Assembly (NCBI GenBank): GCA_017431005.1
Contig: JAFRLY010000035.1
Span: 1-60,123, forward strand
DNA from: Clostridia bacterium
Lineage (GTDB): Bacteria; Bacillota; Clostridia; Christensenellales; Aristaeellaceae
Direction: 5' to 3'
DNA: 60,123 nucleotides
Position 1 is the stretch's first letter. Every line of letters starts with the position of its first letter. Of this stretch, positions 35,223-49,138 are shown in pieces. The translations under genes were made by a program, and so were the position numbers. The notes below the pieces were generated by a model that was not told the DNA's origin, searched no databases, and saw only the letters and a list, made by a program, of their open reading frames with translations.

Positions 35223-36245
35223 TTAAACGGAAGCTCTTTCAATAATGGAGCAGGGAATGATTTCCCGGGCCGGATGAACTCGCTGATTGTTGATCATATC
35301 AATGATGTGGAGCGCGGCCTGGACGCCGATCTGCGTGGTAGGCAGACCTATGGTCGTAAGGGGCGGCTGGAGATATGCGGCGATTTCCCTGTTGTCAAAG
35401 CCGGCCACGGCGATGTCCTCCGGAATCCGGCAGCCGTAGGACGTAAGCACCGCCATGCACCCGGCAGCCATCAGATCGTTCATGGCAAAGATGGCGGTCG
35501 GTCGCACGGGCAGTTTCAGCAGCTCCCGAGTCTGTGCTATGCCGGATTCATATTCCCAGTCGCCGTAGCGGATATATTCCTGCGGAAGGGATAAGCCAGC
35601 CTGCTGCATGGCCATCTGAATCCCCAGCAGGCGCTGCGCCGTAGGATAGGAATGAGGATGCCCGGCGATAACAGCAATGCGTTCATGCCCCTTGCTGATC
35701 AGAAAACGGATCATGTCGGCAGCGGAATCCCGGTTGGAATAGGTTACGTAGGTGTCCTTCTCCGTGCCGTGGGAATAGGCGAATACCAGAGGCGTTTCCA
35801 TTTCATCAAACAGATAATCCAGATGCCGGTCATGCATTGCCACGTAGATTATACCGTCCACATTGGCTGACTGCAGCAGAGACAGACCGTCGTTGATACG
35901 CTGACGGTAGGCGCCGATCTGCTCATACTGATTGTACAGCTTTTCCAGCAAATGCAGATCGTGCAGAATGGTCTTATAGCCGCTTCTGGACAGCGTTTCG
36001 CTGATGCCGCTGACAATGGAGGCTACGGGCAGGCCGCGGATGTCCTCCACCAGTACGCCGATCGTGTGCGTCTGCCCCATGCGCAGAGACTTTGCAAGCG
36101 TGTTTGGTTTGTAGTTTACCTGCGAAACAGCCTGCAGCACACGTTCGGTTGTTTCAGCAGAGATTTTCTTTGAACCGTTTATCACGTGGGAAACCGTGGC
36201 TGTGGATACTCCCGCCAGAATGGCCACTTCGCGCATGGTCGCCAT
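35223..36245 (-). CDS. LacI-family repressor of the arabinoside locus
   Basis: From ATG 36245 the product has 340 residues and begins directly with the LacI helix-turn-helix (REVAILAGVSTATVSHVINGSKKIS), followed by the hinge and a periplasmic-binding-like sugar domain. The track start further upstream adds 24 unrelated residues. Three GGTTAA-type sites lie between it and the divergent importer: a half-site at 36270-36281 and full sites at 36325-36340 and 36407-36422. It probably represses both itself and the importer-GH127 operon until an arabinoside appears. Confidence 0.88.
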   Translation of the reverse strand: MATMREVAILAGVSTATVSHVINGSKKISAETTERVLQAVSQVNYKPNTLAKSLRMGQTHTIGVLVEDIRGLPVASIVSGISETLSRSGYKTILHDLHLLEKLYNQYEQIGAYRQRINDGLSLLQSANVDGIIYVAMHDRHLDYLFDEMETPLVFAYSHGTEKDTYVTYSNRDSAADMIRFLISKGHERIAVIAGHPHSYPTAQRLLGIQMAMQQAGLSLPQEYIRYGDWEYESGIAQTRELLKLPVRPTAIFAMNDLMAAGCMAVLTSYGCRIPEDIAVAGFDNREIAAYLQPPLTTIGLPTTQIGVQAALHIIDMINNQRVHPAREIIPCSIIERASV

Positions 36246-36324
36246 AATGAATACACCGTCTTTCTGATTGGTTAAACGATTGAAGATATTATATCCGGAG
36301 GAAGCGGTTTTCGTCAAGCCGGCC

Positions 36325-36340
36325 GGTTAACAAATTAACC
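36325..36340. promoter_or_regulatory. LacI-type operator
   Basis: GGTTAACAAATTAACC is a perfect six-base inverted repeat with a four-base centre, 24 bases upstream of the importer -35 box. Confidence 0.75.
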
Positions 36341-36363
36341 ATAAAGATTCTTAAATATATCGC

Positions 36364-36392
36364 TTGACATTTCTTCGTTTTGATGTTATGGT
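36364..36392 (+). promoter_or_regulatory. Promoter of the arabinoside importer operon
   Basis: TTGACA (36364-36369), a 17-base spacer and TATGGT (36387-36392) lie between the two operators. Confidence 0.75.
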
Positions 36393-36406
36393 TTCATCAC
36401 CAGATA

Positions 36407-36422
36407 GGTTAATCGAATAACC
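36407..36422. promoter_or_regulatory. Second LacI-type operator
   Basis: GGTTAATCGAATAACC is an imperfect palindrome of the same type. It lies just past the expected transcription start, where a bound repressor blocks transcription. With the site at 36325 it could support looping. Confidence 0.75.
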
Positions 36423-36459
36423 AAATCAATATGCAATCAGAAAAAGGAGGAAAAACAAC

Positions 36460-37779
36460 ATGAAGAAACTGTTGGCAATTGTACTGTGCCTGGCGATGCT
36501 GCTGCCGGTGCTGGCAATGGCGGAAGGCGACGGCCGGGTACATATCACCTATTCCTTCTGGGGCAACCAGACGGAAGCTGACAGCGTGCAGCAGGCCCTG
36601 GATGCCTACAATGAGATGCAGGACAAGGTATTTGTGGAGCCTATGCAGATTCCCAACGAGCAGTATACCGAAACGCTGGTCAATTACGCGATTGCCGATC
36701 AGCTGCCTGACTGCGGCATGGTGAACGAAAACTCCGTGCTGTATTTTGCCCGCAACGGTGTAATGGCGGATGTGTCTGACATGTATGCCGGCGAGGAACT
36801 GCAGCCCATGGAGTGCATTACCTTCAAGGACGGAGATACACCTGTCGGTTATTCCAGCAGCAATGAGATCCTGATCCTCTACTACAACAAGGATATGTTT
36901 GATGCTGCGAACGAGCCCTATCCTTCCGCGGATACCCCGTATACCTGGGATGAGTTTGTGGAAGTGGCAAAGCGCCTGACTTTCGACGAAGCCGGAAAGC
37001 ATCCCGGTGAAGACGGATTCAACCCCGAAAAGATCGTGCAGTACGGCGCGTTTGTCAACAACTGGACCTGGCAGATGGAAGTATGGGCCCTGTCCAACGG
37101 CGGCGCCTGGTTCTCTGAGGACGGCAAGGAGTGCCTGATCAACAGCCCCGAAGCAATCGAATCCATCCAGAAGGTGGCTGACCTGGCGCTGGTTGAGCAT
37201 GTGGCTCCTCTGAACGTCATTCCCGAGGATAATGGTGTCGGCGTTGGTATCGGCAGCAAGACAGTGGCCATGACCACGGACGGAACCTGGCGCCTGGGCA
37301 CGGATTTCCCGAACCTGGGAATCAACTACGGCATTGCGCCTCTGCCCATGATGAAGGAGGAAGTGACCATCTGCACCTCCGGCCTCACCGGTGTTTTCAA
37401 GGGCAAGCATCAGCAGGAGGCTTATGACTTTGTCAAGTGGTACACCCGGGAGGAGAGCAACTGGGATGCGCTGGTGCTGACCGGTATCTGGCTACCCAAG
37501 AGCGAATACTTCTACAAGACTGAAGAAGGTATCAATGAGTGGCTGGGCAATGAAAAATATCCCTACAACAAAGACATGGAAACCGGCAGAAAGGTCCTGG
37601 TGGACTACACCATGAACTATGCCAAACCGACCTGCTGGTACTTCACCCCCAATACGCAGGTGACCACCAACGAAATCCTTTTCACCGCACTGCAGAGCGT
37701 GTGGAGCGGTGAGCGCACGGCTGAGGAGGTCATCAACGAGATTTATCCTGAACTGTGCGAAGCGATCGTTGTGGAGTAA
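36460..37779 (+). CDS. Extracellular sugar-binding protein (UgpB/MalE type)
   Basis: The 439-residue protein has a signal peptide (MKKLLAIVLCLAMLLPVLAMA, cut before EG) and family-1 binding-protein features (VHITYSFWGNQTEADSVQQAL, LNVIPEDNGVGVGIG, TDGTWRLG). It has no lipobox Cys at the cleavage site. AAAGGAGG lies 10 bases before the ATG. It is the first gene of an operon with two permeases and GH127, so an arabinose-containing oligosaccharide is the likely ligand. Confidence 0.88.
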   Translation: MKKLLAIVLCLAMLLPVLAMAEGDGRVHITYSFWGNQTEADSVQQALDAYNEMQDKVFVEPMQIPNEQYTETLVNYAIADQLPDCGMVNENSVLYFARNGVMADVSDMYAGEELQPMECITFKDGDTPVGYSSSNEILILYYNKDMFDAANEPYPSADTPYTWDEFVEVAKRLTFDEAGKHPGEDGFNPEKIVQYGAFVNNWTWQMEVWALSNGGAWFSEDGKECLINSPEAIESIQKVADLALVEHVAPLNVIPEDNGVGVGIGSKTVAMTTDGTWRLGTDFPNLGINYGIAPLPMMKEEVTICTSGLTGVFKGKHQQEAYDFVKWYTREESNWDALVLTGIWLPKSEYFYKTEEGINEWLGNEKYPYNKDMETGRKVLVDYTMNYAKPTCWYFTPNTQVTTNEILFTALQSVWSGERTAEEVINEIYPELCEAIVVE

Positions 37780-37797
37780 GCTGAGCTTGTATTACAG

Positions 37798-37823
37798 TGG
37801 GGGAACGCGGGAGCGTTCCCCCA
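37798..37823 (+). other. Strong stem-loop after the binding-protein gene
   Basis: TGGGGGAACGC and GCGTTCCCCCA form a perfect 11-base stem with the loop GGGA, followed by ATCTTC rather than a T-run. It probably protects the binding-protein message or partly stops transcription before the permeases. Confidence 0.7.
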
Positions 37824-37854
37824 TCTTCAAATTGGACGACGGAGGGATGACGCG

Positions 37855-38772
37855 ATGACGGCAATACCCAAAAGAAAAAGGATCAGGTATAACCGGGCGG
37901 AAACACGGGCTGCCTGGCTTTGTCTGCTGCCGTCGGTGATCGGCCTCACCTGTATCACCTATCTGCCCATGATCGCTTCCTTTGCCCTGAGCCTGTTCAG
38001 CTGGAACGGTCTGGGAGATATGAAATTCGTCGGTCTGGACAATTATGTGCGCCTGTTTACCCGGGATACGAAATTTTACGGCTCCCTGCTGACCACGCTG
38101 GAGTATGCCGGCATTTCGGTGATCGGGAGCATCGTCTATTCCATGATCATTGCCATGCTGCTGAACCGGAAGGTACCGGCCAGGGGCTTTTTCCGCGCTG
38201 TGTTTTATCTGCCCTATGTGCTGCCTGCCCTGGCTGTGTACCTGGGCTGGAAGTGGCTTTATGATTACAATCACGGGCTGTTCAACTACCTGATCAAGCT
38301 GAACGGCGGCACCTCAGTCAAGTTCCTGGATTCCAGCGGTATGGTCACGCCCTCCCTCGCAATGATCGCCGTCTGGCTCAGCGGAAATCTGATCGTGATA
38401 TTCCTGGCGGGGCTGCAGAACGTTCCGCGCACCTATCATGAGGCTGCCGAGATAGACGGAGCCAACGCCTGGCAGCGGTTCTGGAACATCACGATTCCCT
38501 GTATGACCCCGATCATTTTCTATAACCTGCTCATGAGTCTTGTCAGCAATCTGCAGGTGATTACCCCGGCCCTGTCACTGACCCAGGGAGGTCCCGGGAC
38601 CGGCAGCTATTTCATGTGCTTCATGCTTTACACGCAGGCTTTCAAATCTCACAAGTACGGTTACGGGAGCGCGATTGCGGTGATCCTGTTTGTTCTGATT
38701 GCTATCTTTACCGGCATCCTTTTTGCCACCAGCAAAGGCTGGATCTTCTATGAAGGAGATGATAAGGAATGA
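37855..38772 (+). CDS. ABC sugar importer permease (MalF/UgpA type)
   Basis: The 305-residue protein has six membrane helices, the start AAWLCLLPSVIGLTCITYLPM-like typical of UgpA permeases, and the EAA loop HEAAEIDGANAWQRFWNITIP near residues 198-218. Its stop overlaps the next start by four bases. The ATPase is not encoded nearby. Confidence 0.88.
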   Translation: MTAIPKRKRIRYNRAETRAAWLCLLPSVIGLTCITYLPMIASFALSLFSWNGLGDMKFVGLDNYVRLFTRDTKFYGSLLTTLEYAGISVIGSIVYSMIIAMLLNRKVPARGFFRAVFYLPYVLPALAVYLGWKWLYDYNHGLFNYLIKLNGGTSVKFLDSSGMVTPSLAMIAVWLSGNLIVIFLAGLQNVPRTYHEAAEIDGANAWQRFWNITIPCMTPIIFYNLLMSLVSNLQVITPALSLTQGGPGTGSYFMCFMLYTQAFKSHKYGYGSAIAVILFVLIAIFTGILFATSKGWIFYEGDDKE

Positions 38773-39653
38773 GCACGCAGGTGATGAAAAAACCGGTTCG
38801 CGGAAGCCGTATCGTCTCCAGATCGCGGCGGAAGAAAACGGCGGATATTCTGTGCTTTGCGCTGCTTATTCTGCTGGCGCTGATTGTGATGTTTCCCATT
38901 TACTGGATTTTCCGGTCCTCCCTGATGTCCAACGGGGAATTGTATGCCTATCCCCCGGCCTTTGTGCCTCCGGCCTGGCGGTTTGAAAACTATCCGGAAA
39001 CGCTGAAATCCTTTGAATATCTGAAGTTTCTGGGCAACACCATGACCATTTTGCTGCCTGCCGTGTTCGGGGCAGTCATCACCGCGACCATGGGTGGGTA
39101 TGCTTTTGCCCGGCTGCGTTTCAGGGGGAAAAAATTCCTGTTTACCCTGTGCGTGGGGTCCATGCTGCTGCCCGGCATGGTGACGCTGATCCCGCTGTTT
39201 ATCGCCTGGTCAAAGCTGGGCCTCGTCAACACCTACTGGCCGCTGATCCTGCCGCATTTCTGCGGGGGCGGCGCGTTTAACATTTTTCTGATTCGCCAGT
39301 TTGTGAAAACCGTGCCGCGGGAGCTGGACGAGGCGGCGACCATCGACGGCTGCGGCTTCTTCCGTATCCTTGTCTTTATTATTGTTCCGGCGATCAAGGC
39401 AGCGATGATTGTGGTCGGGCTGCTGAAATTCATTGAGCTGTGGAATGACCTTCTGCAGCAGGTGACCTACATCACCCGCAGGGAACGATATACCCTGGCG
39501 CTTGGCCTGAATATTTTCCGGGGCTCCTTCAACGACGACTGGTCCAGTATCATGTGCGCCACTTGCCTGTCCTTTATTCCGGGTATTGTGTTCTATCTGA
39601 TCGGGCAAAAATACTTTGTGGAAGGCATCGTCATGACCGGGATGAAAAACTGA
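38769..39653 (+). CDS. ABC sugar importer permease (MalG/UgpE type)
   Basis: The 294-residue protein has six membrane helices and the EAA loop DEAATIDGCGFFRILVFIIVP near residues 190-210. FPIYWIFRSSLMSNGELY is typical for the first external loop of UgpE-type permeases. It is coupled to the preceding permease by an ATGA overlap and lies 18 bases before GH127. Confidence 0.88.
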   Translation: MSTQVMKKPVRGSRIVSRSRRKKTADILCFALLILLALIVMFPIYWIFRSSLMSNGELYAYPPAFVPPAWRFENYPETLKSFEYLKFLGNTMTILLPAVFGAVITATMGGYAFARLRFRGKKFLFTLCVGSMLLPGMVTLIPLFIAWSKLGLVNTYWPLILPHFCGGGAFNIFLIRQFVKTVPRELDEAATIDGCGFFRILVFIIVPAIKAAMIVVGLLKFIELWNDLLQQVTYITRRERYTLALGLNIFRGSFNDDWSSIMCATCLSFIPGIVFYLIGQKYFVEGIVMTGMKN

Positions 39654-39671
39654 GGAGGGGAGGATTGCGTT

Positions 39672-41576
39672 ATGCCTGCCCGGGAGATTCCCTTAACCCG
39701 CGTTAAAATAACAGACACGTTCTGGTCACCCCGTCAGAAGCTGATGACGGATGTCACCATTCCATATATGGAAAAAATTTTACGGGATGAAGTGTCGGAG
39801 GCCAGGAAATCCCATGCGATCCGTAACTTCCGTATGGCCGCGGGTGAGGAATTCGGGAACTTTTATGGAATGGTTTTTCAGGACAGCGATGCGGCCAAAT
39901 GGCTGGAGGCGGCGGCTTATTCCCTGTATCTGAAGAAGAATGAAGCGCTGTCCGGACGTGTGGATGAGCTTGTGTCGCTCATCGGGCGCTGCCAGCAGCG
40001 GGACGGCTATCTGAATACCTATTTCACGGTGAAGGAACCTGAGAATCACTGGAAAAATCTGCTGGAGTGCCATGAGCTTTACTGCGCCGGCCATTTGATG
40101 GAGGCGGCTGCCGCGCTGCATGAGGCAGCCGGCAAGGATGAGCTGTTGCAGATCTGTATCCGTCTGGCGGATCATATCTGTGACAGGTTCGAAAAGGAAG
40201 ACGGTATTCCGGGACATCAGGAGATAGAGATCGGTCTGCTCCGCCTGTTCCGCGCGACAGGAAATGCGCGCTACCGGGATATGGCGCTGCGCTTTCTGAA
40301 CCTGCGGGGGCAGGACCCTGAATGGTTCATCCGGCACACGCCGGCGCATCCGGGAATCCATTACGGCGGGTATGACATCAGACCGGAGGATACAATCTAC
40401 AATCAGTCAGATGTTCCGGTGCGGGAACAGACGGCGGCGCGCGGACACGCGGTCCGGCAGCTGTACATGCTGGCCGCTATGGCTGACGCTGCTGCGGAAA
40501 CAGGAGATCAGGCCATGCTGGATGCCTGCCGGCGCCTGTTTGACAATATCATGCAGAAACAGATGTTTGTCACCGGTGCTGTAGGCGCGTCGGCATATCA
40601 TGAAGCGTTTACGGTGGACTATGATCTGCCGCCGGACCGCTGCTACGGGGAGACCTGCGCTTCGGTCGCGATGGTGTTCTTCGCGCACAATCTGATCAAA
40701 AACCATCCTGACGGACGCTTTGCCGATCTGATGGAGCTGGAGCTTTACAATGCTGCCCTGGCCGGCATGCAGCTGGACGGGAAACGGTTTTTCTATGTAA
40801 ATCCCCTGGAGGTGGATACATCCGTGTCCGGCAAGGTCCCGGGATACGAACATGTACTGCCGCAGCGTCCGCCCTGGCATGACTGTGCCTGCTGCCCGCC
40901 CAATCTGGCCCGGCTGATCGCGTCGCTGGGCGGATATCTGTGGAGCGAGGATGAGAATACTGTTTACAGTCATCTGCTGATTGGAAGCGAAGTCTTAACG
41001 AAATTCGGACGCATCCGGACGGAAAGCGGGTATCCATGGAAGGGAAACGTCAGATACCTGATAGCAGACGGCGGTCATTTCACGCTGGCCGTTCATATTC
41101 CAGGCTATGTGACAGAATACACTGTCAGGATAAATGACCAAGTGGAAACGGTTCCTTTCCGGGACGGTTATGTGTTTGTCAGAAGAACCTGGCAGGGAGG
41201 GGATACGGTTACTCTGCTTTTTGACATGCCGGTACGAAGACTTCATGCGGATGTCCGGGTCCGGAGCTGCGCCGGCAGAACCGCGCTGGCCCGTGGCCCC
41301 TTCATTTACTGCTTTGAGGAGGAGGATCAGCCGGAACAGCTGTTTTCAGTATCCCTGCCTTCTGACGCCCGGATAGATACCGTGCCTTCACTGCCGGGTC
41401 TGCCGCAGGAAACGGTCTGCCTGTCAATGGAGGGACATGCGGATGTGTCACCGGACAGGCAATACAGTTCTGATCCGCCCGGGAGGATTTCATGCAGGTT
41501 GAAAGCTGTTCCGTATTTTGCCTGGGGAAACCGTTCGCCAGGGAATATGCTTGTCTGGATTCGGGAACACCCATGA
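39672..41576 (+). CDS. GH127 beta-L-arabinofuranosidase
   Basis: The 634-residue enzyme shows the zinc and catalytic cysteine set of GH127: Glu327 and Cys329 in YGETCAS and Cys407-Cys408 in CCPPN, spaced as in bifidobacterial HypBA1. The (alpha/alpha)6 barrel and C-terminal beta domains fit the family length. It removes L-arabinofuranose joined by beta bonds, as in plant extensin hydroxyproline arabinosides or pectin side chains including rhamnogalacturonan II. No signal peptide is present, so its substrate comes through the importer encoded upstream. A terminator follows. Confidence 0.9.
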   Translation: MPAREIPLTRVKITDTFWSPRQKLMTDVTIPYMEKILRDEVSEARKSHAIRNFRMAAGEEFGNFYGMVFQDSDAAKWLEAAAYSLYLKKNEALSGRVDELVSLIGRCQQRDGYLNTYFTVKEPENHWKNLLECHELYCAGHLMEAAAALHEAAGKDELLQICIRLADHICDRFEKEDGIPGHQEIEIGLLRLFRATGNARYRDMALRFLNLRGQDPEWFIRHTPAHPGIHYGGYDIRPEDTIYNQSDVPVREQTAARGHAVRQLYMLAAMADAAAETGDQAMLDACRRLFDNIMQKQMFVTGAVGASAYHEAFTVDYDLPPDRCYGETCASVAMVFFAHNLIKNHPDGRFADLMELELYNAALAGMQLDGKRFFYVNPLEVDTSVSGKVPGYEHVLPQRPPWHDCACCPPNLARLIASLGGYLWSEDENTVYSHLLIGSEVLTKFGRIRTESGYPWKGNVRYLIADGGHFTLAVHIPGYVTEYTVRINDQVETVPFRDGYVFVRRTWQGGDTVTLLFDMPVRRLHADVRVRSCAGRTALARGPFIYCFEEEDQPEQLFSVSLPSDARIDTVPSLPGLPQETVCLSMEGHADVSPDRQYSSDPPGRISCRLKAVPYFAWGNRSPGNMLVWIREHP

Positions 41577-41603: not shown

Positions 41604-41632
41604 GCCGGCTGAAGGGTTCAGCCGGCTTTTGA
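41604..41632 (+). terminator. Terminator of the arabinoside operon
   Basis: GCCGGCTGAA and TTCAGCCGGC form a perfect 10-base stem with a GGG loop, followed by TTTTGATT. Confidence 0.85.
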
Positions 41633-41815
41633 TTCATGGACAGGCGGCTGATGCAGACAAATATTATGCTGTCAATTTGTCCGGGACCTGCTGTATAATA
41701 CAGCTGCATCCGCACAGCGGATCCGCAGGCCGGACGGGAGCGCATTGCCTGACTGCTCAGAGCTCCGCCTGCCGGGGGCAGAACGCCGGGAAAACGGGAA
41801 GGGAAAGAAAGCTGT

Positions 41816-43261
41816 ATGAAAAAGACCTATGTGACCACGATGCCGAATCACATCGGCGCGTTCCTGAAGGCCAGCGAATGCTTTGCCGAACTGGGAATGA
41901 ATATCACGCGGGTCAGCTATAACAAGGCCATTGATTCGCATATGCTGTTCATTGACGCGGAAGGGACGGAAGAGCAGATCAGGCAGGCGGATCTTCAGCT
42001 TACGAAGATCGGGTATCTTCAGAACGGAGAACCGGAAAAAGCAATCGTTCTGCTTGAGTTTACGCTGAGAGACCGTCCGGGAGCCGTGACAGAGGTGCTC
42101 CGGCTGATTCAGCAATACCGGCTGAACATTTCCTATATCAGCTCCCAGGAAAACGGAACGGAGTACCAGGCCTTCAAGATGGGACTGTTTGTGGAGGACG
42201 AAGGGAAGCTGCAGGATTTTATCTCCCGGGCGGGGGCGGTCTGCCCTGTCCGCGTGATCGATTATAATCACAGCGAAAAATTCTATGACAACAGCATCTT
42301 TTACCGCTCCTTTGTCTCCGGCCTGATGCAGGAGATGAACCTCCCGGAGGCTGCTCGTGAGGGGCTGCTGGTGAACTCCAACCTGATCATGCAGATGCTG
42401 GATGAAAGAGGGCTTTCCCCCTACAAGACCTTTGAGAGCATCAGCCGATTCGCGGAGCTCCTTGCTGTTTCAAGAGGCGGCGCGTTCGTGCCAAGGGTCA
42501 CCCGGCACCGCATAACCGATTCCACGGAAATCATCCTGATTGAGCCGCCCTGCGGAAGCAATACCGCCATTATTCAGAGCCAGGGCCGGACGCTCTTTGT
42601 CGACTGCGGCTACGCGCTGTACCGGGATGAAATGCTTGCGCTGATCCGGAAGCTCCTGCCGGGCTGGGACGAAATGAAAAAACAGATTCTGATTACGCAC
42701 GCGGATGTGGATCACTGCGGGCTGCTTTCCCTTTTTGACGAAATCCTTGCCAGCGAAAAATCCAGGGAGTGTCTGGCGCTGGAGGCGGACGGAAAAGACG
42801 GGTTCCGGGAGCAGAATCCGGTGCATAAGCCCTACGTCAGCATCTGCAAGACACTGACCGGCTATTCTCCGGTGGAAAAGGATAAGGTAACGGGCCTGTG
42901 GGGAAACACCGCGCCTCAGGACGAACCGCTCGCGCAGATCGGGTTTTTCCGCTTCGGAGATCTGCGGTTCGAAGTCTATCAGGGTCAGGGCGGACACCTG
43001 CAGGGGGAAATCGTCCTGATTGATTATGAGCATCATCTTGCTTTCACGGGCGATATCTTTGTCAATACACACGGAATGACCCCGGAGCAGAAGACCTACA
43101 ATCAGTATGCGCCGGTGCTCATGACCTCCGTGGATACAGATCCCGTGCTGTGCGCGCTGGAACGGCAGGCGTTTATGCAGAGGCTGGGAACCGGCACGTG
43201 GCAGATTTTCGGAGCGCACGGAATGAAGAAGGATTATCGCGTGCAGGAAGAAAAACAGTGA
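41816..43261 (+). CDS. Two ACT domains fused to a metallo-beta-lactamase-fold domain
   Basis: Residues 1-72 (YVTTMPNHIGAFLKASECFAELGMNITRVS) and 76-150 (EFTLRDRPGAVTEVLRLIQQYRLNISYIS) are typical ACT domains, which bind amino acids. After a helical linker, residues 238-475 form a metallo-beta-lactamase fold with HADVDH (His295, Asp297, Asp299, His300), GQGGHLQGE, FTGD and a final GAHG. The second metal His of HxHxDH is replaced by Asp. An amino-acid-controlled hydrolase is the simple reading. No close named family is known to me. ATG 41816 follows GGGAAAGAAAGC; the gene is alone. Confidence 0.7.
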   Translation: MKKTYVTTMPNHIGAFLKASECFAELGMNITRVSYNKAIDSHMLFIDAEGTEEQIRQADLQLTKIGYLQNGEPEKAIVLLEFTLRDRPGAVTEVLRLIQQYRLNISYISSQENGTEYQAFKMGLFVEDEGKLQDFISRAGAVCPVRVIDYNHSEKFYDNSIFYRSFVSGLMQEMNLPEAAREGLLVNSNLIMQMLDERGLSPYKTFESISRFAELLAVSRGGAFVPRVTRHRITDSTEIILIEPPCGSNTAIIQSQGRTLFVDCGYALYRDEMLALIRKLLPGWDEMKKQILITHADVDHCGLLSLFDEILASEKSRECLALEADGKDGFREQNPVHKPYVSICKTLTGYSPVEKDKVTGLWGNTAPQDEPLAQIGFFRFGDLRFEVYQGQGGHLQGEIVLIDYEHHLAFTGDIFVNTHGMTPEQKTYNQYAPVLMTSVDTDPVLCALERQAFMQRLGTGTWQIFGAHGMKKDYRVQEEKQ

Positions 43262-43375: not shown

Positions 43376-43696
43376 ATGATTACTGTGAATCTGTACTATA
43401 CGGGTACCGGCGGGAATGCCCGGGCTTTCGCTGAGGAGATGGAATCCTCCGGCATCGCGGACAGCATCCGGAAGGAACCCGGGAATCTGCGCTATCAGTA
43501 TTTTCAGCCGCTGAACGATCCGGAAACGGTCCTGCTGATCGACAGCTGGAAGGATCAGGCCGCGATCGACGCGCACCACGCCTCGCCGATGATGGCGCAG
43601 CTGGCGGCGCTTCGGGAAAAGTATGATCTGCATATGACCGCGGAACGGTTTGTGAGTGAGAATATGGGGACGGACGGGAAATATCTCCGGAGGTAA
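43376..43696 (+). CDS. ABM-fold protein (putative quinol monooxygenase)
   Basis: ATG 43376 has GAGGAG upstream; the longer frame opens only with TTG. The 106-residue protein has the dimeric alpha/beta ferredoxin-like form of antibiotic-biosynthesis-monooxygenase-type proteins: RYQYFQPLNDPETVLLIDSWKDQAAIDAHHAS is the usual middle part, with the His of the active-site region. Such proteins act on quinols or are of unknown function. Confidence 0.75.
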   Translation: MITVNLYYTGTGGNARAFAEEMESSGIADSIRKEPGNLRYQYFQPLNDPETVLLIDSWKDQAAIDAHHASPMMAQLAALREKYDLHMTAERFVSENMGTDGKYLRR

Positions 43697-43707
43697 TCAG
43701 GGGATCC

Positions 43708-44379
43708 TTACCTGAGGCTTTTCAGATATTCCTTGTGCGCGTCGGTGACCCGGTAGCTTTCCAGCGCTTTCTGAATGGTCTTTCTGTGTGTCCAGTCATC
43801 CAGCCGGCGGTTCACAAAGTAGGGGACGGTCTCCTCATACCGCTTGGCGAGGGCCGTGGCGAAATACCAGGCGATCATCATTTTCAGGTAATAGTCTTCG
43901 CCCTTTCTGGAGGCCACAAGCTCCGGATATTCCTCCCGGAAATCCTCCCCCAGAAACTCGTTCATCAGCATGCGGATCCCGAAGCGGGCGGTATATACGG
44001 AATCCGAGGCGATCCATTTCCGGATATGGGGCAGGAGCCTCTGATGATTCCTTGTGAACACCTTCGGGGTCGACTGATCCGATACCGGCCAGCAGTCCAC
44101 ATAGGGCAGGAACGCGTCCACGGCCTGCACACAGGCGTCGAAATCACGGATCATGGAAATCACAAAGAAATGGATCAGGTTTTCCTCGTAATACCGGTGC
44201 GGCAGATCGTTCAGGAACGCTTCCCGGTCCGGGCTTCCGAAGACTTCCTTCGCAATCTTCCTCATCTCAGGTGTCCTGACACCCAGGATGGTTTCCGGCG
44301 GGATATTCGGAACCAGCTTCACCTGAAACTCCCGGTATGTATCATCCTTGACTTTGATAAGCCTGTCATACAGTGTCAT
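43708..44379 (-). CDS. DNA alkylation repair protein (AlkD-type HEAT repeats)
   Basis: The 223-residue protein is all-helical with HEAT-like repeats and matches AlkD-type proteins: ILGVRTPEMRKIAKEVFG early, YVDCWPVSDQ near residue 96 with the Asp next to the Trp used in glycosylase action, and HPHIRKWI, MMIAWYFATAL later. AlkD removes bulky alkylated bases without flipping them out. A possible TTGACA-TAATAT promoter with a long 19-base spacer lies at 44476-44446. It converges with the ABM gene. Confidence 0.8.
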   Translation of the reverse strand: MTLYDRLIKVKDDTYREFQVKLVPNIPPETILGVRTPEMRKIAKEVFGSPDREAFLNDLPHRYYEENLIHFFVISMIRDFDACVQAVDAFLPYVDCWPVSDQSTPKVFTRNHQRLLPHIRKWIASDSVYTARFGIRMLMNEFLGEDFREEYPELVASRKGEDYYLKMMIAWYFATALAKRYEETVPYFVNRRLDDWTHRKTIQKALESYRVTDAHKEYLKSLR

Positions 44380-46506: not shown

Positions 46507-47010
46507 TTATTCTTTTCCAAACCGCTTCCGCATCAGGGGCTTGATTCCGCCGGCCTCCAGAATGAGCATGGCCTGTTCACCCAATTGCTCACAGGGATAA
46601 CTTTCACCTGTTTCCTGCACGCTGACTGTGCCGGCGTCCAGATCAAGCGTAAGCGTCTGCCCGGCGTTCACATGCCGGCTGATTCCTTTACAGATAACCG
46701 GCAGCAGGCCGAGATTTATCGCGTTGCGGAAAAAGATACGGGCAAAGGAATCCGCCAGTACCGCTCTGGCTCCCATGGCCAGCAAAGCGATCGGTGCGTG
46801 CTCCCGGCTTGACCCGCAGCCGAAATTACGGCCCGCAACGACAATCCCGCCCTCCGGAAAGGTTGACGCAATCTCCCTGCTGACACCTTCAAGGCAATGG
46901 CTTCCTATCTCTTTCGGGTCTGTCAAAGCCAGATAACAGCCCGGATAAATCTGATCGGTATCAATATTGTCGCCCACAACAATCACTTTGCCTGTAAGCT
47001 TCTTTTCCAT
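46507..47010 (-). CDS. Aconitase-family dehydratase, small (LeuD-like) subunit
   Basis: The 167-residue protein is a swivelling-domain subunit: DNIDTDQIYPGCYL, then AGRNFGCGSSREHAPIAL with the substrate-binding Ser-Ser-Arg, and DSFARIFFRNAINLGLLPV. With the large subunit it adds or removes water from a hydroxy acid. 3-isopropylmalate, 2-methylmalate or 2,3-dimethylmalate are possible substrates. It lies 16 bases after the large subunit gene. Confidence 0.85.
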   Translation of the reverse strand: MEKKLTGKVIVVGDNIDTDQIYPGCYLALTDPKEIGSHCLEGVSREIASTFPEGGIVVAGRNFGCGSSREHAPIALLAMGARAVLADSFARIFFRNAINLGLLPVICKGISRHVNAGQTLTLDLDAGTVSVQETGESYPCEQLGEQAMLILEAGGIKPLMRKRFGKE

Positions 47011-47026
47011 CGTTTTACCCTCCTTT

Positions 47027-48292
47027 TCACAGATACGGTCTGGGATCGGTAATCCTGCCGTTCAGCAGGCTGGCGGCCACGGTGGCGGGAGAGGCCAGAT
47101 AAAGGCTGGCTTCTTTGGATCCCATCCGGCCGGGGAAATTGCGGTTTGTACTGGTGATACAGATTTCACCGGGTGCCAGAATACCTTCGTGGACGCCCAG
47201 ACAGGCTGCGCAGCCCGGGGCGGCAATTGTGGCTCCGGCGGCCATCAGGTCCTGGATATATCCTTTTCTGATGCATTCGCTCAGTACTTCGCCGGAAGCC
47301 GGAACGATAATCAGCCGGGTATACGGCGCGATATGCTTTCCTTTCAGGATGCCGGCGGCAACGGCGATATCCTCTTCCCGGCCGCCGGTACAGGAACCGA
47401 TATAGCCCTGGTCCAGCTTAACGTCCTGCCCGGCAATCACTTCAGAAAGCGGATGGACGTTTTCCACGCTGTGCGGACAGGCCAGTTCCGGCTCCAGCCC
47501 GGAAACATCGAACACATAAGATTCTGCATATTCATATCCCGGATCGGTATACTGCACTTCATAGGGGCGGACCGCACGGGCCTTCACATAATCCAGCACA
47601 TCCTGATTGGGCTGCATATAGGCAGTTTTTGCGCCCATTTCCACGGCCATGTTACAGATGACCATACGGCCTGCCACATTCAGGTTTTCCACATAACTGC
47701 CGGTAAAGTCGATTGCCTTATAAACGGCTCCGTCCGCGCGGATCTTTCCCAGTACGGCAAGGATCACATCCTTGGGATAAACACCTTTCGGGGCCTCTCC
47801 CTCCAGCCGGATTTCTATAATCTCCGGCACTCTGAACCAGAGTTCGCCGGTCATCAGGATCGTGGCCATATCCGTTGCTCCGCAGCCTGTGCCCATGGCG
47901 CCGAAAGCTCCGTGCGTTGTGGTATGGGAGTCCGTTGCGACAACAATCATGCCGGGATAGATCACACCGGCTTCCGGCATCACCTGATGGCAGACGCCGC
48001 AATTTGTGTCGAAATGAAAACGGAGATTGTTCTTTTTCGCAAACTCCCGCATTTCCCTGTGATTTGAAGCGCTTTTCACATCAGGGCAGGGAGCATAGTG
48101 ATCAAACACAAACGCACAGCGTTCCCGGTCCCAGACTTTTTCCCCGCCCATTTCATAGAAGGAATAGACGGTCTGCAGATAAAGATCGTTAATCTCCGCA
48201 AAATCAATCTTCGCGGTAACGATCTCTCCTGTTCTGACACTTTCTTTTCCGCTGTTCCGGGCCAGGATCTTTTCAATGGCGTGCATTTTCAT
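47027..48292 (-). CDS. Aconitase-family dehydratase, large (LeuC-like) subunit
   Basis: The 421-residue protein carries the three cluster cysteines Cys301 (GSCTGG), Cys361 and Cys364 (GCAAC) and conserved DSHTTTHGAFGAMGTG and NMAVEMGAKT segments. It would hold a [4Fe-4S] cluster. No leuA or leuB lies nearby and a divergent GntR/FCD regulator controls it. A catabolic use (such as dimethylmalate dehydratase, DmdA/B) is therefore as likely as leucine synthesis. GTATACGAT-type operators lie before its start. Confidence 0.85.
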   Translation of the reverse strand: MKMHAIEKILARNSGKESVRTGEIVTAKIDFAEINDLYLQTVYSFYEMGGEKVWDRERCAFVFDHYAPCPDVKSASNHREMREFAKKNNLRFHFDTNCGVCHQVMPEAGVIYPGMIVVATDSHTTTHGAFGAMGTGCGATDMATILMTGELWFRVPEIIEIRLEGEAPKGVYPKDVILAVLGKIRADGAVYKAIDFTGSYVENLNVAGRMVICNMAVEMGAKTAYMQPNQDVLDYVKARAVRPYEVQYTDPGYEYAESYVFDVSGLEPELACPHSVENVHPLSEVIAGQDVKLDQGYIGSCTGGREEDIAVAAGILKGKHIAPYTRLIIVPASGEVLSECIRKGYIQDLMAAGATIAAPGCAACLGVHEGILAPGEICITSTNRNFPGRMGSKEASLYLASPATVAASLLNGRITDPRPYL

Positions 48293-48496: not shown

Positions 48497-49138
48497 ATGA
48501 ACCATTTAGCGATGATGCCTGCCCGGGTACGGATCGCTTCTGAATTAAGAAAGGCAATTTACACCGGTGAATATAAAAGCGGGGACGAGCTGAGCCTTAC
48601 GGAAGTGGCAAATCAGCTGGGAATCAGCCGTACGCCGGTCCGTGAAGCCTTTCAGGAGCTGGAGGGAGAAGGGCTGATCACACTCCGCATGAACAGGGGA
48701 GCCGTTGTTAATCAGATCGACCGGAAATTTGTTCAGGACATTTTTGAAATGCGGAAACTGCTGGAGGCGGAGGCCGCCGCCCGCGCCGCGAAGAATGGCA
48801 TGGAGACGGAGCGGCTGCTGGAACGGCTGTATGATCTCCGGGATCACATAGAGGATGTGAGCAGGGAAAAATATGAAACGCTGAACCAGGATATTCACAC
48901 CGCGATCTGGAAGACGGCGGACAACCATCAGCTGCAGAAGTATCTTCTGGAAATGTGGAACGGCCCCAGCGCGGCCGGCACTCCGGAGAATGTGCTGGAA
49001 CATTACCGGAATTCAACATTTGAGCATATCTCAATCCTGCAGTTCATCCGTGACGGAATGCCGGCAGCAGCGCAGCAGGCAATGGAACTTCATATTACGC
49101 GGAGCATGAAAAACATGCTCAGCCTGTTTCCGGAATAA
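48497..49138 (+). CDS. GntR-family regulator with FCD domain
   Basis: The 213-residue protein has a winged helix-turn-helix (LTEVANQLGISRTPVREAFQELEGEGLI) and an FCD helical domain that usually binds an organic acid with a metal. The twin palindromes on both sides of the intergenic region suggest it represses itself and the divergent dehydratase genes, with the dehydratase substrate or a related acid as inducer. Confidence 0.88.
   Translation: MNHLAMMPARVRIASELRKAIYTGEYKSGDELSLTEVANQLGISRTPVREAFQELEGEGLITLRMNRGAVVNQIDRKFVQDIFEMRKLLEAEAAARAAKNGMETERLLERLYDLRDHIEDVSREKYETLNQDIHTAIWKTADNHQLQKYLLEMWNGPSAAGTPENVLEHYRNSTFEHISILQFIRDGMPAAAQQAMELHITRSMKNMLSLFPE

Follow-up and report, generated by a model that had tools for sequence, protein, structure and literature searches.

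ACT-ACT-metallo-beta-lactamase proteins of gut bacteria: a conserved family with a possible role as amino-acid-gated hydrolases in branched-chain acid metabolism

The stretch of DNA considered here, called the window below, comprises positions 1 to 60,123 of contig JAFRLY010000035.1 (forward strand) from assembly GCA_017431005.1, a gut or rumen Clostridia bacterium of the family Aristaeellaceae. One of its genes encodes a protein, ACT-MBL, in which two ACT domains and a helical linker stand in front of a metallo-beta-lactamase (MBL) fold. This layout is a real family and more than a chance fusion, because the open frames of its relatives are mostly full-length, both kinds of domain are matched in 19/19 members of an alignment (A1) at E 0.01, and six metal-site residues are invariant in 112/112 non-redundant homologues. 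What may such a protein do? Our reading, offered tentatively and drawn from sequence comparison, is that it would be an amino-acid-gated metallohydrolase, probably an acyl-CoA (CoA, coenzyme A) thioesterase, in the metabolism of branched-chain acids and amino acids. The parts of the gene to which the text refers are as follows.

41816..43261, + strand: ACT-ACT-linker-MBL gene, 481 amino acids plus stop (open reading frame (ORF) and Pfam scan)
41819..42025, + strand: ACT domain 1, residues 2-70 (conservation, predicted strands and helices, PF22629 below its cut-off)
42041..42265, + strand: ACT domain 2, residues 76-150 (PF01842 above its cut-off, conservation, structure alignment)
42266..42487, + strand: helical linker, residues 151-224 (structure prediction, conservation)
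42488..43249, + strand: MBL fold, residues 225-478 (Pfam match, predicted model, structure alignment)
42698..42715, + strand: HADVDH, residues 295-300 (conservation; aligned to the BcII motif)
42995..42997, + strand: H394, presumed metal ligand, BcII position 196 (conservation, profile alignment)
43052..43054, + strand: D413, presumed metal ligand, BcII position 221 (conservation, profile alignment)
43217..43219, + strand: H468, presumed last ligand by chain order (conservation)

The first-pass annotation of this DNA had already proposed a fusion of two ACT domains with an MBL domain, and the ORF, which starts with ATG, the Pfam matches and the predicted fold agree with it. The domain search recommended there gives PF00753 (Lactamase_B) at 32.0 bits against a cut-off of 22.7 (residues 245-416) and PF01842 (ACT) at 31.6 bits against 27 (residues 79-120, the second copy); structure prediction gives an ACT-type pair, a linker and an MBL fold, whose limits we set from the predicted model and the aligned range 221-477. 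The first ACT copy stays under every Pfam cut-off, its top score being 24.5 against 27 for PF22629, and is predicted with the same strand-helix pattern as the second. Residues 1-153 align with 1u8s, which we take to be a structure with two ACT domains, but at a root-mean-square deviation of 9.8.

Relatives at 36-80% identity mostly have a full-length open frame; two have one internal stop, and in three the query is matched partially. From 166 loci with a focal match, 112 non-redundant homologues were kept after dropping the partial matches (L152-L154) and any homologue at least 90% identical to a kept one; alignment A5 is A4 without L052, L113, L116 and L111. Conservation extends through the whole chain. 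In the first ACT domain, G14 and N29 are invariant in the 109 homologues with letters there, and position 11 is D in 55, N in 53 and H in one of them. The second has D86 in 108/110, G89 in 110/110 and N104 in 107/110, and D158, F162 and Y163 of the linker are kept in 110/110.

The residues invariant in all 112 homologues are H295, D297, D299, H300, H394 and D413, and H468 is likewise kept by each of the 105 homologues that align that far; such invariance speaks for catalysis. Loss of ligands in homologues, which the first-pass annotation had named as a sign against its idea, was not seen. Profile alignment pairs the six with positions 116, 118, 120, 121, 196 and 221 of BcII (R121H/C221D variant), in what we take to be BcII numbering. 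Instead of the HxHxDH motif of the Lactamase_B superfamily there is HxDxDH, so that the annotation was right to see HADVDH as lacking its second His; by alignment, the clear departure is a conserved Asp at this place. It had also suggested that the change may move the chemistry from zinc hydrolysis to iron and oxygen. Here the replacement of the His stands, while an Asp alone implies no iron/oxygen chemistry, as the ComEC case tells. In flavodiiron proteins Glu takes the place of the second His (His83, Glu85, Asp87, His88, His149, Asp168 and His229 in C. difficile, according to an excerpt of PMC6033852). ComEC, whose MBL domain is a Mn2+ phosphodiesterase/nuclease, has Asp at one of the motif II His positions (excerpt of PMC8579336). 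Since the former carry Glu and the latter, a Mn2+ hydrolase, carries Asp, the motif leaves the two chemistries undivided. Structure matches of the predicted MBL domain (TTHA1429 18.7, BcII 17.5, flavodiiron 17.4, PqsE 17.3) do not choose between them either, and the metal could be Mn, Zn or Fe.

Could the protein then be a diiron oxygen or redox sensor, or a reductase, like the flavodiiron proteins and the ODP family (PF19583), which protects or switches an oxygen-sensitive ferredoxin pathway under additional amino-acid control by the ACT pair, in line with the iron/oxygen idea of the first-pass annotation? Both share the MBL fold and an acidic residue for the second His. However, this residue is Asp and not Glu, the window protein scores 16.5 bits with the ODP model against a cut-off of 27.2, and its Pfam matches include no flavodoxin or other redox domain, so that the combination of HxExDH with flavodoxin is not found. 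In addition, TTHA1429 and BcII score as well in structure, and BcII is the best MBL match by profile. We regard a diiron function as improbable.

The Asp shared with the ComEC motif raises another possibility, which we also regard as improbable: that the protein is a phosphodiesterase or phosphohydrolase that depends on Mn2+ and has a nucleotide, CoA or a signal as its substrate. The C-terminal MBL domain of ComEC, a Mn2+-binding phosphodiesterase with this Asp in motif II, has Asn at motif III (excerpt of PMC8579336); ComEC also has a DNA channel. ACT-MBL has the invariant H394, which probably occupies the motif III position, and no channel domain in the Pfam scan, so that it does not look like ComEC in these respects; the 50 structure rows listed contain no ComEC chain, an absence that counts neither for nor against. 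Low-scoring matches to models of Avs1a, RNase Z and RNase J lean toward this idea. Against it, defence models all stay below 16 bits, and the recurrent neighbours are acyl-CoA and amino-acid genes. An anti-phage role was rejected, as these matches below 16 bits were the only ones to defence models.

As for the regulatory half, acetolactate synthase small subunits IlvN/IlvH bind valine through their ACT domains. PF22629, the model of such a subunit, is matched in 11 of the 19 A1 members, and IlvN is the best ACT-side PDB match of the whole profile (8.4e-5); the title of 5ypp contains 'IlvN.Val'. The fold is in common, and in the alignment IlvN has N, G and N opposite D86, G89 and N104, presumably residues of its ligand loop; identity to ACT-MBL is 9-21% in structure alignments. 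By the PF22629 and whole-profile matches the ACT side leans to branched-chain sensors; matches of the ACT region alone, given below, lean elsewhere.

Does the gene keep company with branched-chain metabolism? The survey of gene neighbours proposed in the first-pass annotation found recurrent acyl-CoA ligases in some lineages and no universal partner. One conserved neighbour in all homologues was rejected, since in a first clustering (a crude ORF caller, which missed the focal gene in 8 loci) no neighbour family occurred in more than 13/81 loci anywhere in the flanks. The commonest upstream same-strand family was an AMP-binding ligase (8/88 ORFs), followed by MaoC, nitroreductase and metallophosphoesterase (3/88 each); among 79 downstream ORFs, AMP-binding was not one of the 25 commonest families listed. 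Targeted searches found near the gene one family of ligases with helix-turn-helix (HTH), cupin and AMP-binding domains and one of TIM-barrel+AMP ligases. We called a locus linked if a ligase, TIM-barrel, LeuA-like or MaoC (hydratase) gene lies within 2.5 kb on the same strand, and testable if it has at least 1.5 kb upstream, as have 101 of the 112 non-redundant loci (11 have less). Twelve of the 101 are linked: L158; L159; L087 (the same cluster as L163); L101, L102, L092 and L096; L155, L156 and L157; L109; and L160, with L157 and L109 linked by MaoC alone. The 458 kb lying no more than 2.5 kb from the gene contain 14 ligase genes, the 579 kb further out only 3, and these three belong to the same clusters. 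On a tree made by a quick method from 110 of the 112 homologues, the linked label changes 8 times, at least 6 by starred branches, against a shuffled mean of 11.6. L101, L155, L109 and their kin, in one clade, may owe their linkage to one shared gain. In L160, 41% identical to the window's protein, an Lrp/AsnC regulator, an aminotransferase, an AMP ligase, a TIM barrel and ACT-MBL are consecutive. At L186 (38%), a locus from the Treponema bryantii family, an HTH-type ORF and a ligase resembling MbcS follow on the same strand after about 0.6 kb; this case is outside the count of 12/101. L048 is flanked by ligases, but these are on the opposite strand, and it was counted as unlinked. An HTH/ligase pair in genus g203, about 10 kb away and on the opposite strand, was not counted as linkage.

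Among curated models, the two HTH-cupin ligases scanned score best with NF047394 MbcS (443 and 436 bits), though without reaching its cut-off of 850. MbcS of S. aureus activates 2-methylbutyrate and isobutyrate (excerpt of PMC10026030). The order in L158 is LeuA-like, TIM-barrel+AMP-ligase, HTH-cupin-AMP-ligase, ACT-MBL and again HTH-cupin-AMP-ligase; L101 also has LeuA-like, TIM-ligase, amidohydrolase (47% to that of L174) and HTH-ligase genes. Homologous ligase clusters at L175 and L174, loci from genomes without ACT-MBL, continue with 2-oxoacid:ferredoxin oxidoreductase genes and a branched-chain aminotransferase. L175 has the same first three genes as L158 and the second HTH-cupin ligase (identities 38, 55, 65 and 61%), and in L158 ACT-MBL sits between the two HTH ligases of this order. 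Downstream in L175, VorB (2-ketoisovalerate:ferredoxin oxidoreductase) and the aminotransferase exceed their cut-offs, with 527 bits against 399 and 442 bits against 307, while the oxidoreductase beta subunit reaches 117 bits with its best model, under the cut-off of 262; the VorB of L174 is 70% identical to that of L175. The ferredoxin, gamma subunit and ATPase of L175, and the genes of L174 other than VorB and those compared by identity, were named by eye. Because L158 keeps the order of L175, ACT-MBL is placed in branched-chain acid and amino-acid metabolism; the link rests on homologous gene order, since the L158 stretch, which ends at the contig end, holds no oxidoreductase. It is to be noted as a separate observation that the HTH-cupin domains are fused to the MbcS-type ligase in L101 (5668-7965), L155, L158, L174 and L175, with two copies in some clusters, and that this set also has the TIM barrel fused to another acyl-CoA ligase; no description of either fusion was found in the literature searched.

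Presence in the same genomes points in a similar direction. An MbcS-type ligase (E up to 1e-100) was found in 39/40 carriers of ACT-MBL and 22/40 non-carriers, for which the Fisher value of 8e-6 overstates the difference because the 40 + 40 genomes were not matched by clade; as they share ancestry, the samples are also not independent. With E up to 1e-60 it is present in 14/14 carrier genomes reached through loci, one of which, G816, looks the same as G191 of the 40-carrier set. It was not found on the Methanosphaera plasmid described below, the chromosome of that strain lying outside the search. For VorB the counts are 38/40 versus 26/40 (Fisher 0.0015), weak evidence because most matches are only 49-59% identical, and 10/40 versus 8/40 at 65% identity or more. 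VorB co-occurrence was set aside as support, since those matches may be other 2-oxoacid oxidoreductases. Of the loci in one targeted neighbour search, L086 alone has VOR genes nearby, 5.5-7.4 kb away on the other strand.

Rumen bacteria use branched short-chain acids as growth factors, and amino-acid fermentation in the gut yields such acids as end products. In the mechanism that we propose, ACT-MBL would act as a stand-alone allosteric metallohydrolase, composed of the ACT pair, the helical linker and an MBL domain with seven candidate ligands (HxDxDH, H394, D413 and H468). Activation of branched short-chain acids would be the task of the module's ligases. An amino-acid product of the module (valine, leucine or isoleucine) would bind to the ACT pair and thereby switch the MBL domain, which would hydrolyse one of the pathway's acyl-CoA thioesters (isobutyryl-, 2-methylbutyryl- or isovaleryl-CoA). 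Most likely the bound amino acid would alter the linker and so open or close the MBL site, the direction of control being our supposition. ACT-MBL may thus be an amino-acid-controlled brake on the activation of these acids: with plentiful amino acid, branched acids would not be drawn in and CoA would not be tied up. A bolder version, which we consider unlikely in all its parts together, is a feedback valve: a metallo-thioesterase gated by branched-chain amino acids that empties the branched acyl-CoA pool when the ACT domains are filled, controls how rumen isoacids are built into amino acids (or fermentation in the reverse direction), and has travelled as a single-gene cassette across Bacillota, Spirochaetota, metagenome-assembled genomes (MAGs) of Lentisphaerota and a methanogen plasmid. 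If the proposal is true, the choice between excreting branched acids and turning them into branched-chain amino acids would have a control point open to direct test, in the form of a widespread, amino-acid-gated single-gene hydrolase beside the ligases, and amino-acid allostery would be added to the MBL superfamily.

Several observations weigh against this assignment. Unlinked loci make up 89 of the 101 testable ones, and the window's own locus counts among the unlinked; its genome (85% complete) has no VorB match at 1e-50. The 40 + 40 genomes were chosen for completeness (the carriers being 40 of about 70 then known) and not matched by clade. Carriers and non-carriers do not differ in full-length HTH-cupin ligases of at least 59% identity (16/40 in each group), and in the family of T. 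bryantii the ligase occurs in 8/9 carriers versus 47/71 non-carriers (Fisher 0.26). Taken by itself, the ACT region has Rel as its nearer match (1.8e-5) and stands equally close to phenylalanine hydroxylase and IlvN, and its structure matches lie close together. It might be asked whether ACT-MBL has nothing to do with branched-chain acids and is a mobile single-gene cassette in general amino-acid metabolism with another ligand or substrate, or a regulator that keeps its metal site for structure only, the ligase neighbourhoods being local to a few clades. The unlinked loci, with their greatly varying neighbours, would fit this. So would an ACT-less version that keeps HxDxDHSG and lies directly downstream of a pyridoxal-phosphate aminotransferase/MocR-like protein on the same strand in two loci of genus g4 (L138, L139), and a flavin adenine dinucleotide-dependent protein (PF21688) that stands downstream instead in five loci of one deep clade (L140-L143, L027), with a metallophosphoesterase upstream in three of these. 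However, linkage recurs at distant points of the tree, to which L186 adds a case, the MbcS-type ligase is in nearly all of the 40 carriers, and the invariant ligands favour catalysis. We hold this alternative to be somewhat doubtful.

How new is the protein? Its component folds are known; their combination, to the extent that could be judged, is new. The nearest PDB sequence by profile is BcII R121H/C221D (1.9e-5), and BcII of Bacillus cereus has the same fold and ligand order, though ACT-MBL has HxDxDH instead of HxHxDH and its MBL domain is preceded by a linker and two ACT-type domains; the core model of class B beta-lactamases (NF012229) gives 12.5 bits against a cut-off of 100. In the AAPatA ACT-GNAT acetyltransferases, an ACT domain is likewise fused to an enzyme domain under amino-acid control, the enzyme being an acetyltransferase and not an MBL protein, in another phylum, the actinobacteria (excerpt of PMC6434083). 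No curated model scanned covers the ACT-ACT-MBL layout, and neither a description of it nor a case of amino-acid allostery in the MBL superfamily was found in the literature searched, which for the layout meant titles and abstract openings, with subscription papers mostly outside the scope. The first-pass annotation had likewise known of no system with this exact layout, and its interpretation as a whole was borne out in part.

The family is apparently widespread though undescribed. Relatives occur in 42/200 genomes of the window's family (in two of these, G101 and G121, without ACT domains), 21/297 of its order and 5/299 of its phylum, its own genome being counted in each, in 4/5 genomes of one genus, and in 9/80 of the family of T. 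bryantii, this species included. A scan of genome contigs yielded at least 528 relatives among at least 592 pattern matches, and the best 80 of these relatives are by title mostly rumen and gut MAGs of Clostridia, in addition to Treponema/Spirochaetales and Lentisphaeria/Victivallales, with T. bryantii XBD1002 as the single named strain among the 80. A copy at 37% identity, annotated only as 'MBL fold metallo-hydrolase', is on plasmid pNP174 of Methanosphaera sp. ISO3-F5 (113387-114808), flanked by an aldo/keto reductase and a histone gene. Because Bacillota are intermixed with Spirochaetota and Lentisphaerota in the tree, transfer is suggested, with binning errors possible for single MAG contigs. 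Phage or viral carriage was rejected: there was no match in 50,697 phage records, and 0 of 95 pattern matches in viral contigs encode a relative. Genome G045 has the gene in two tandem copies (contig C309, L012), 58% and 66% identical to that of the window.

In the window, two candidate signals precede the gene.

41604..41630, + strand: inverted repeat with a T run, resembling a terminator, following the GH127 gene (by eye)
41670-41699, + strand: promoter-like TGTCAA-18-TATAAT (by eye)

From these signals, the gene looks monocistronic. A conserved RNA leader was rejected, since a scan of the window gave no Rfam family at gathering score and the upstream stretches of 81 loci showed no common element by eye. 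Just upstream (35223-41576) lies an ordinary sugar-use cluster with a LacI-type regulator, sugar ABC transporter genes (by eye) and a GH127 beta-L-arabinofuranosidase, parted from ACT-MBL by the terminator-like repeat. Downstream, at 43376-44379, an ABM-domain gene (+) is accompanied by one for a DNA alkylation repair protein (-). A LeuC/LeuD-type pair (46507-48292, - strand; homoaconitase and isopropylmalate isomerase families, subfamily cut-offs passed) lies 3.2 kb downstream of the gene and was not found near it in other loci; close to this pair, at 48497-49138, is a GntR/FCD regulator.
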